A stretch of 64,000 bases of DNA, taken from the NCBI GenBank assembly GCA_022648545.1, contig JALCMP010000004.1:1-64000 (forward strand), read 5' to 3'. Below, piece by piece: positions 38,850 through 51,393 of this stretch (position 1 is its first letter; the number at the start of each line of letters is the position of its first letter). Under the pieces are notes generated by a model that worked only from the letters and a program-made list of their open reading frames with translations, was not told where the DNA came from and ran no database searches. The DNA comes from Bacteroidales bacterium. GTDB lineage: Bacteria; Bacteroidota; Bacteroidia; Bacteroidales; UBA932. The translations under genes and the position numbers were made by a program.

Positions 38850-40820
38850 ATGATAGACAGAGCTACGATAGATAAAATATTGGATACTGCAAGGATAGAA
38901 GAGGTAATAGGCGACTTCGTTTCGCTGCGCCGACGCGGTGCCAATTACGTAGCATGCTGCCCTTTCCACCATGAAAAGACACCGAGCTTTACCGTTTCTC
39001 CTTCCAAGGGGATATTCAAATGCTTCGGGTGCGGAAAAGCCGGCAATGTGGTTACATTCGTAATGGAACACGAACACATGAGCTACGTTGAAGCATTAAA
39101 ATTCATAGGGAAAAAATACGGCATAGAGGTAACTGACAAGGAGGAAAGCGCGGAAGATGTTGAGAGAAGGCTTCTTAGCGAATCACTGCTAATAGTAAAC
39201 GAATTCGCCGAAAAATATTATTCGGAGCAGCTATGGGATACTCCCGGCGGAAGGGCCGTGGGAATAAGTTATTTTAGGGAACGCGGATTTACAGACGATA
39301 CCATAAGAAAATTCAAACTGGGGTTCGCTCCCGCAGGCCGGGACGGCTTTACGTATTCGGCAATAAAGGCGGGATATAAGAAAGAGCATCTGACGACGGC
39401 CGGACTTTCCGTAAAACGCGAAAACGGAGAATATGCCGACAGATTTTTCGAACGCGTAATGTTCCCGTGGCATTCCATAAGCGGAAAGACGATAGCCTTC
39501 GGAGGAAGAATACTCACTTCCGACAAACATATGGCGAAATATGTAAACTCGCCGGAGAGCGTTATCTACGAAAAAAATAAATCATTATACGGAATATTCG
39601 AAGCCAAGGGAGCGATTTCAAAGGAACAGAAATGTTATCTGGTAGAAGGATATACAGACGTAATTTCCTTCAGTCAGGCCGGAGTGGAAAATGTGGTTTC
39701 AAGCGGGGGCACGTCACTTACTACCGGACAAATAGGGTTGATAAAAAGATTTTCCAATAAGATAACGGTGCTGTACGATGGGGATTCTGCGGGAATAAAA
39801 GCATCCCTGAGAGGCATCGACATGCTGCTCGAAGAAGGGATGGAGGTTAAGGTAGCGCTCTTCCCCAACGGCGAAGATCCCGATTCCTTTGCAAGGAAAC
39901 ACACAGCTTCCGAATTAAGGAATTTCCTCAGCGAAAATGAAGAAGATTTCATAGCCTTCAAGTACCGCCTGCTTAATGATGAAACAGGTAACGATCCGTT
40001 GCGCAGAGCCAATCTCATAAGGGAGATAGTAAAAAGCATTGCCGTAATTCCCGATGCTATAATACGAAACGTATACATTGAAGAAACGTCTTCCAAACTT
40101 TCAGTCGACCAGAACATGCTTTCCGGAGAAGTTGGAAAAATAATCTATGCCAGACACAGGAAAAACTTTTTTGAAAACAGGAGGGCGGCCGAAGCCGAAA
40201 AGGAAAACGTAAAGACGGAAGATCCCGGCAAAGATATGAATCTGCCGTCTTTCGTCATATCAACTTACTGTGAAGAAGCCGAAAAGGAAATATTATATTA
40301 TCTTATAAAATTCGGAAAATCAAGACTGGTGCTTCACGACAGCCTTAATATCGGATCTGAAAGAGATGAAGGACTTACGGTGGGCACTTATATCTTGAGC
40401 GAACTGCAAAACGACGAACTGGAATTGCAGAATCTCGTCTATAAAAACATCTTCGACGAATACTTCTCGCTGCGTGAAGATAGTCAGGAAAAAATAATAA
40501 GACATTTCGTAAACCATCCCGACGGATCCGTTTCACAGGTAATAGTTAACCTGCTGGCCGAACCGTACACCTTATCAATAAAAAGCTTCAGGGACTCCGT
40601 AGTCCCGGAATCCAACGTACTCGGCATGGTAGTACCCAAGGCCGTTCTGGTATATAAGGCAAAGATAACATCCCAGGCATGTCTTAAAATATGCAGGGAT
40701 ATGGAAAAAGCTCAGAAAGACAGGAACTCGGAAAAAGAAACGGCACTTATGGGACAACTTAACATATTAAATAAAATAAAAACCAGATTTCTAAAGGAAC
40801 TTAAAAGGACAAGCGCATAA
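38850..40820 (+). CDS. dnaG: DNA primase
   Basis: A 656-residue primase. The N-terminal CHC2 zinc finger is complete (CPFH with C37 and H40, then CFGCG with C58 and C61). The catalytic core (about 120-320) includes [22 protein letters not shown], the TOPRIM glutamate in [15 protein letters not shown] and the DGDSAGIKA aspartates. The last 200 residues form the DnaB-interacting region and diverge from proteobacterial forms, as expected for the phylum. metG follows after 14 bases. Confidence 0.96.
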
Positions 40821-49286: not shown

Positions 49287-49366
49287 TTCTCGTTGTGTTA
49301 AATTATTTTAATTAATTATAACCCGCCCTCCATCAATGTAATTTGCAACATTACTCCGGATTACGG
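49287..49366 (-). ncRNA. Candidate S6:S18-binding leader of the rpsF operon
   Basis: The leader reads AACCC...GGGTT (outer helix) enclosing GTAAT-GTTGCAA-ATTAC (inner hairpin), with an asymmetric internal loop carrying CCGGA. A known rpsF leader motif, found in many phyla, places a CCG in a bulge where the S6:S18 complex binds to repress translation. The fit here is by eye. An A/T-rich single-stranded stretch of about 40 bases then leads to the rpsF ATG. Confidence 0.5.
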
Positions 49367-49371
49367 GGTTG

Positions 49372-49403
49372 CAAATGTATACAAATTATTTATATTCAAC
49401 AAA
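49372..49403 (-). promoter_or_regulatory. Promoter of the rpsF operon
   Basis: On the minus strand TTTG (49403-49400), 20 bases, TACATTTG (49379-49372): full consensus. The -33 element overlaps the U-tract of the upstream hairpin terminator at 49401-49438. Confidence 0.75.
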
Positions 49404-49438
49404 AAAAAGGAAAAGACAACCATAAGGCCGTCTTTTCC
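49401..49438 (-). terminator. Intrinsic terminator upstream of rpsF
   Basis: GGAAAAGAC/GTCTTTTCC 9-bp stem followed on the minus strand by eight U residues. It could end the candidate small RNA and any read-through from the TPR gene. Confidence 0.85.
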
Positions 49439-49480
49439 TCCGCTTAAATACGATTGTTAATAATTCTTTTACTTCGTTTC
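49401..49480 (-). ncRNA. Candidate small RNA, about 80 nt
   Basis: A perfect promoter at 49486-49517 and a strong terminator at 49401-49438 bracket a transcript of about 80 bases (AATTGAAACGAAGTAAAAGAATT... to the U8 tract) with no ORF; the only ATG lies within the terminator stem-loop. It sits between the TPR gene and the rpsF promoter. I know of no family name for it. It could instead be an attenuated upstream start for the rpsF operon. Confidence 0.5.
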
Positions 49481-49707
49481 AATTGCAAAGATAAACCCTG
49501 CAGAATGCAGATACAAATAAAACGAAGTCTATTTTCTTGCATTTGCTATTATCAGCAACCTATAAATAAGGTATTTACGACAGAACAGGAATTACAAATC
49601 TTGCGAAAACATTAAAGCATTAATAATTAGTCCATTACAGCAACAGAGGCCAACACTAATAGGTAACTGTTTAATAATAAGCCAATTATCCGCAAACACG
49701 ACAGCAA
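49440..49707. other. Non-coding gap between rpsF terminator and TPR gene
   Basis: No ORF of note. It holds the candidate small-RNA promoter (49486-49517) with its flanking inverted repeat. The remainder (49530-49707) is A/T-rich, and I see no further signal or a clear terminator for the TPR gene. Confidence 0.5.
49486..49517 (-). promoter_or_regulatory. Promoter of the candidate small RNA
   Basis: On the minus strand TTTG (49517-49514), 20 bases, TATCTTTG (49493-49486): full consensus. It is flanked by a 9-bp inverted repeat, ACTTCGTTT (49471-49479) and AAACGAAGT (49520-49528). Confidence 0.65.
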
Positions 49708-51393
49708 TCAAAAATCCATGGACTCATCTTCTTTTATAAGATCGGAAATTTTCCTTTTAAGTCTGCTTTTGCGTACATATATATTTTGAGGGGTATCATT
49801 CAATATAACACTCATTTCCTGCGGAGAGAATCCGGCATATATGAGATTCAGCAATTTTATATTATCCTCGCATATAGAAGGATAACTTTTTCTTATCTTA
49901 GAGATGGCTCCGTTGTTCTTTGCATCCACCACCTCTTCCATGGTCCTGAACATATCGGTTTCCGGAGAACGCAGCGATATGAGCTCATCAACTTTTTTTT
50001 GCAATTTTTTGGAAGAGCCGTATTGGTAATATGTCCCGGCGAGCTCCCTTACTTCCGCAAAACGATTTTCAAGCAATCCCTTAAGTTTCTTCTCATTTTC
50101 CTTATGCTCGTCCAGATCGTCCAGGAGTGCGTTTCTATATTTTGAAGCTTCTTCGGCCATTACCAGATATTCTTCGATTTTCTTGTTTTTTTCACGAATA
50201 CGGTTCCTGATATATGAAAAAATCATGAACGATATAAATATTACGGCCGTTATTACCAATAAGAAAATTATAAGCATGAGTCTATTCCTGATCTTAACGG
50301 CTTTATTTTCCATGACCAGCCTCCGGTTCCTGTATTCCTGTTCGATATCCCTTATAGACCTTACCTTGTCCGAAGAATTGATATCGTCCATTATCTCTGC
50401 GTATTTGCGATTATATTCGAGGGCCTTTTCATAATCTCTGTCCGACTGCGCAACCGAACATAAAAGAGAATAAATCCCGGCTTTCTCTACAGGCTTAAGA
50501 TCCGACGAAGCTGTCATGTATTTTTTGGCATACCCCGCGGCCTTTTTCCCGTCGCCTCTGTCCATATAAAGGCAGGCCAGCATAATATAATTATCCAAAG
50601 GCACGGTATCATGCGTATAAGTTTTGTATATATAAGAAAGATTATGCAATATTCCGTCTGAAGAAGCACCAATGGAAAATTTAACGCCTTCTATGGATGT
50701 CAGATAGGAAACATAAGAAACAGTATCGGCCAATTTCCGGGAAATCACAGCAGCGCGTGAATAATATGATACCGCCTTTATATTGGCACCAAGCATTCCG
50801 CACTCTTTCCCGGCAGATCCCAGAAGCCTCATGTACAAGCTGTTGCACGTATCGCGCTTTATAATTGAAACACCTTTCTCGTACATTGAAAGAGCTCTGG
50901 TAAAATTCATGCGTTCATGATAAAGTCTCCCCTTGTGCAAATATATCTGTGCCGAATAATACACTCCGGGATACCTCAGCCTGCCATTCCAATAACCGGC
51001 AAGAACATATTGTTCCATAGCTCCGTAATAATCGTCCCCTTTTTCAAGAAGACGTCCCAGATAATACCGCGACAGCATTTTCTCCCTTGCAGTACCATTA
51101 GATGAAAAATAGCCGGCGGCCTCCTTCATTTCGCTTTCGCCGATAAGAGGAAGTCCGCTTCTGTCGAGAGCCATTATATTGCATAAAAAAAAACGCGATT
51201 TTTCAGCAGTAGTGGAAATATCGCTCATTTTAACAGTATTTAATACTGCCAGCGCACTGTCGGGGTTATAAGATAAAAGACTATCCGCCTTTTGTACTGC
51301 AAGCATTACACCGGAGGGTCTGTCTCCACTGCACGCCACAGCCAAAAGGCAGGATAGTAGACCTGTAAATAATAAATTGCGAAAGGAATCCAT
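49708..51393 (-). CDS. TPR lipoprotein with cytoplasmic HTH domain
   Basis: A 561-residue protein: lipoprotein-like signal (LAVAC, Cys21), TPR-type helices (about 30-350), one membrane helix (about 371-395: MLIIFLLVITAVIFISFMIFSYI), a coiled coil (about 400-440), and a C-terminal LuxR-like HTH (CEDNIKLLNLIYAGFSPQEMSVILNDTPQNIYVRKSRLKRKI). It matches a Bacteroidales family of membrane-bound TPR regulators. The likely topology is an outside sensor with an inside DNA-binding domain. It starts directly at the pepD stop (TAGATG), so it is coupled to DUF4831-pepD. Confidence 0.82.
   Translation of the reverse strand: MDSFRNLLFTGLLSCLLAVACSGDRPSGVMLAVQKADSLLSYNPDSALAVLNTVKMSDISTTAEKSRFFLCNIMALDRSGLPLIGESEMKEAAGYFSSNGTAREKMLSRYYLGRLLEKGDDYYGAMEQYVLAGYWNGRLRYPGVYYSAQIYLHKGRLYHERMNFTRALSMYEKGVSIIKRDTCNSLYMRLLGSAGKECGMLGANIKAVSYYSRAAVISRKLADTVSYVSYLTSIEGVKFSIGASSDGILHNLSYIYKTYTHDTVPLDNYIMLACLYMDRGDGKKAAGYAKKYMTASSDLKPVEKAGIYSLLCSVAQSDRDYEKALEYNRKYAEIMDDINSSDKVRSIRDIEQEYRNRRLVMENKAVKIRNRLMLIIFLLVITAVIFISFMIFSYIRNRIREKNKKIEEYLVMAEEASKYRNALLDDLDEHKENEKKLKGLLENRFAEVRELAGTYYQYGSSKKLQKKVDELISLRSPETDMFRTMEEVVDAKNNGAISKIRKSYPSICEDNIKLLNLIYAGFSPQEMSVILNDTPQNIYVRKSRLKRKISDLIKEDESMDF

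Follow-up and report, generated by a model that had tools for sequence, protein, structure and literature searches.

A predicted free-standing small RNA gene upstream of rpsF, found in a subclade of one Bacteroidales genus

GibS and FopS, two small RNAs (sRNAs) of B. thetaiotaomicron, consist of a single-stranded 5′ region followed by a terminator, and they pair at translation start sites (PMC7366714, PMC11697453). RRM_1 is the domain of the FopS partner, RbpB. Here, we describe a candidate sRNA gene of a similar type in the window –the whole 64-kb stretch of DNA that was analysed. It is alike in having a single-stranded conserved stretch and a terminator, together with a TAnnTTTG promoter. 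Like GibS (PMC7366714), it would be a free-standing sRNA from an intergenic region, in which a terminator accompanies a long conserved stretch without structure. However, GibS is ~145 nt long, with promoter motif PM2 and seeds R1 and R2, whereas the candidate is ~80 nt long and has a TAnnTTTG promoter. FopS forms a paralogous family of 12-15 copies in Bacteroidaceae (PMC11697453), whereas the candidate is single copy, and its conserved block lies beside the hairpin, not at the 5′ end. The Rfam scan gave no FopS match in a release whose inclusion of a FopS model is uncertain. Finally, the ribosomal protein leaders of rpsF occupy a similar position in nine of the 13 genomes with the unit, but the candidate brings a promoter and a terminator of its own and also occurs where rpsF is absent downstream.

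On the minus strand of the window, the predicted sRNA (~75-80 nt) spans 49401-49481, with the 5′ end placed from the −7 box. An earlier note on this DNA had read a promoter TTTG-N20-TATCTTTG at 49517-49486, and we confirmed both letters and positions: the −7 box TATCTTTG lies at 49486-49493 and the TTTG of the −33 position at 49514-49517. The TGCAA element, a possible regulator site, is found 48 nt upstream of the −7 box (49537-49541). Downstream, a conserved block of 19 nt, TTAACAATCGTATTTAAGC (49442-49460), is the presumed seed, and it borders the intrinsic terminator hairpin GGAGGAAAAGACGGCC-TTAT-GGTTGTCTTTTCCTTT (49406-49441). The earlier note was right about this hairpin being present but wrong about its length, since the stem has 15-16 bp (49441-49406) and not 9 bp. 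The U8 tract that it described, ending at 49401, is the T8 at 49408-49401, and the first bases of this tract pair in the hairpin as well. The separate rpsF promoter, TTTG-N20-TACATTTG (49372-49403, minus strand), is not part of the sRNA and does begin inside the U-tract of the terminator, as proposed: its −33 box, TTTG at 49403-49400, overlaps the tract and is followed, after N20, by TACATTTG at 49379-49372.

When folded and compared with shuffled sequence, the 84-nt RNA reached −25.6 kcal/mol (z = −4.7), a value equalled by 0 of 200 shuffles. Scanning both strands of the window for TAnnTTTG followed by a terminator 60-115 nt later retrieved two places, this unit and one other, against none in 30 first-order Markov shuffles. 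The second match, at 40584 on the minus strand, is antisense within dnaG and was judged a probable chance match. Judged by its sequence, the unit has its own promoter and its own intrinsic terminator outside coding genes, with ~40 bases that hold no ORF between the two. A short transcription unit with these two signals could in principle encode a small protein, but we give this reading next to no credence: the sole ATG of the window copy sits in the hairpin loop and opens a frame that extends past the terminator, and indels of varied length occur between the promoter and the block.

The promoter-terminator unit was found in 13 of the 39 genomes of the window's genus, all genomes compared being metagenome assemblies or drafts. 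A pattern search together with a sequence-only model on the 39 genomes retrieved seven members with E-values of 5e-12 or better, here called type A, and a second pattern search on the same genomes retrieved six members of type B. The model gave one strong match per genome. No second copy was found in the window genome (G000), where the block TTAACAATCGTATTTAAGC is unique at up to 3 mismatches, and the weak pattern and model matches inspected as extra copies fell in coding sequence or at gene 5′ ends. One of the type A genomes, G030, corresponds to the MAG Candidatus Egerieousia excrementavium (its contig L022 matches L068).

Outside the genus, the pattern search on 393 genomes of the order returned matches at about control level, no unit was found in the family sample, and the sequence-only model gave nothing convincing. 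G440, considered as a possible member at 24 bits, presented a promoter and the start of a coding gene with no unit. The viral contigs, phages, and plasmids searched gave no match, and Rfam 15 gave no family at gathering or relaxed thresholds (best sub-threshold match, 19.9 bits against the 55 needed). We also compared the regions upstream of rpsF in 30 genome loci –the window's and those of congeners– and in 80 further Bacteroidales loci, which partly represent the same genomes as the 30. Nearly all of them have a TAnnTTTG box upstream of rpsF, but the extra promoter-terminator unit was confined to genus-mates. The unit, for which the earlier note had suggested a search upstream of rpsF in other Bacteroidales, turned up solely in a subclade of one genus and is not a general feature of rpsF in the order.

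All 13 units share the same order: promoter, variable AT-rich stretch, conserved block, and hairpin. Each presents the TAnnTTTG −7 box and a T-run that begins 81-96 nt after the start of this box. The hairpins range from −22 to −34 kcal/mol and are followed by a run of T4-8. The promoter-terminator unit is kept among these relatives, but the TTTG at −33 is not. Every unit has TGCAA 48 or 49 nt upstream of the −7 box. Among 1005 TAnnTTTG sites in the DNA collected, no comparable peak was seen at that offset beyond the units themselves, so that TGCAA probably marks a specific regulator site.

The block defines the two types. In type A, the 19 nt of TTAACAATCGTATTTAAGC are identical in G000, G014, G019, and G030, as opposed to poorly conserved flanking intergenic DNA between G000 and the other three genomes, and G021, G017, and G011 show two differences over 17 nt. 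Type B genomes carry AAGCAAGTATTTTTATAGTTGAAC with small variations. The position of the block and its 5′ stretch TGAAATTTGAGT, common to some members of both types, suggest that the two blocks are homologous, with common synteny and promoter layout as the main grounds; the sequence-only model recognised type B loci at E = 0.01 to 0.07, a weak sequence similarity. For the terminators, the RNAalifold consensus on a MAFFT alignment was poor, with stems of different register misaligned, and stems were compared by pair ladders in its place. Hairpin pairs changed on both sides were 7 of 15 between G000 and G014 and 10 of 14 between G000 and G005. On this comparison, the terminator stems are rebuilt, with the structure kept and the letters changed.

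The usual gene order is pepD, the gene of a TPR protein, the unit, and rpsF-rpsR-rplI. The TPR-protein gene, which adjoins the sRNA in most unit-bearing genomes, is encoded in the window at 49708-51393 (minus strand). Its product, of 561 aa, is lipoprotein-like and has a membrane helix, a possible helix-turn-helix in its C-terminal part, and a weak TPR_12 Pfam match below the cut-off.

Nine of the 13 genomes have the unit immediately ahead of rpsF and co-oriented with it, although for G030 this arrangement is seen solely on a contig ending inside rpsF. This position would fit the second reading of the earlier note, an upstream start of the ribosomal operon ended by attenuation. On that view, some transcription of rpsF-rpsR-rplI would begin ahead of the hairpin, and ribosomal protein synthesis would be set by read-through there. 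We regard this as very improbable. Four units have no rpsF downstream, and the next gene is convergent, which contradicts an attenuated start. The intact unit of G017 and G011 has an acyltransferase gene on one side and a convergent pepD on the other, with the TPR gene not adjacent, and in G017 the distance to rpsF is ~9 kb. In G022, the unit is separated from rpsF by HigB/HigA-like genes and a gene for a 1239-aa protein, in the opposite orientation. In G015, where rpsF is on another contig, a 1004-aa ORF converges on the unit. At least two independent rearrangements underlie these displacements, and every displaced unit is complete. Moreover, rpsF has its own promoter after the hairpin, and no conserved alternative antiterminator helix was seen.

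Some side observations concern the same neighbourhood. The HigB/HigA-like genes of G022 form a toxin-antitoxin-like pair at L199:5122-5887, between the sRNA unit and rpsF. In the window (49287-49371, minus strand) and in relatives, the 5′ UTR of rpsF may contain a separate hairpin, GCAACCCCGTAATCCGGAGTAATGTTGC in the window and AAGTAGT...ACTGCTT in type B genomes, possibly a ribosomal protein S6/S18 leader. G030 carries two rpsF copies, a full one without the unit (L022) and a partial one at a contig end with the unit (L132), which suggests that this MAG is a mixed bin.

The unit could also be a mere terminator of the TPR gene, which lies upstream on the same strand and ends ~200 nt before it with no other terminator found between, and the TAnnTTTG could be a chance match in AT-rich DNA. 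This explanation, however, has very little probability in our judgement. A terminator needs neither the −7 box nor the TGCAA element, each present in 13/13 units, nor a conserved block. The unit is complete in G017 and G011, where the upstream gene encodes an acyltransferase, and in G007 the TPR gene does without such a terminator: it is followed by 87 nt and then rpsF, with neither unit nor terminator between. The displaced intact units and the arrangement in G007 speak against the attenuator and the mere-terminator readings alike, although the unit may also end transcription of the TPR gene. It is conserved independently of the neighbouring genes. The free-standing sRNA, the first reading of the earlier note, gains support from the 13 genomes and from the four of them without rpsF downstream. 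As read from these genomes, the promoter box, the upstream element, the block, and the hairpin are kept together even without rpsF downstream or the TPR gene upstream.

A tree of the S6, S18, and L9 proteins from 34 genomes –short proteins, midpoint-rooted, with G030 entered through its full-length rpsF copy and not the one adjoining the unit– groups the unit-bearing genomes with three that lack it (G009, G007, and G035). The window genome is placed on a long branch at the base of this subclade. Type B genomes come out as a single group (support 87), and the remaining unit-bearing genomes are type A. Probably the ancestor of the subclade already had the unit, and the three genomes nested within it lost it; in these, either the unit is dispensable or the MAGs are incomplete.

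Altogether, this is very probably a real, free-standing, lineage-restricted sRNA gene of uncultured gut Bacteroidales, a new family that is ordinary in kind. We consider it likely that it is an independent minus-strand gene whose product acts in trans, the block base-pairing with mRNAs and an RRM protein possibly assisting. Transcription would start near 49480 from a promoter of the sigma-ABfr type (−7 box, 49493-49486), probably controlled by a DNA-binding factor that recognises TGCAA near 49540, and would end at the intrinsic terminator (49408-49401). The expected product is an RNA of ~75-80 nt with a mostly unstructured 5′ half ending in the ~19-nt block, followed by the terminator hairpin. 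We infer transcription of the predicted sRNA and, because its architecture resembles that of GibS/FopS-type sRNAs, base-pairing in trans, with the block as the seed, probably near start codons as in those sRNAs. An RRM protein may take part, and the window genome encodes two RRM_1 proteins.

Extended complementarity to the block was at or below control level in seven genomes, and the start regions of pepD, the TPR gene, and rpsF gave no pairing better than shuffles consistently across genomes. Short imperfect sRNA-mRNA pairing can escape the complementarity scan used. As an alternative, the block could bind and titrate a protein, for example an RRM protein, instead of pairing with mRNA. It is a long, AT-rich, mostly single-stranded stretch, the search for a long complementary target was negative, and the two RRM_1 proteins would be at hand. 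We find this unlikely: the scan can miss ordinary sRNA-mRNA pairings that are short or imperfect, and the block is not the same in types A and B, a difference more in keeping with changing targets than with a protein site that stays constant. A more far-reaching form of the base-pairing reading, in which an RRM-assisted sRNA family is driven by a regulator at TGCAA and its seed was rewritten between the sister lineages A and B while promoter, position, and architecture were kept, is a tentative idea that we put forward as rather unlikely.

Studies of Bacteroidota sRNAs have mostly been in Bacteroides, and this locus adds a comparatively well-supported family outside that genus, obtained from genome sequence alone. 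The family leaves a clear phylogenetic footprint of upstream element, −7 box, block, and rebuilt terminator, and rearrangements in nature set it apart from the genes around it. It offers a testable case for the origin, seed change, and loss of young lineage-specific sRNA genes. If the seed was indeed rewritten between the two types, sRNA target switching would have occurred here naturally.
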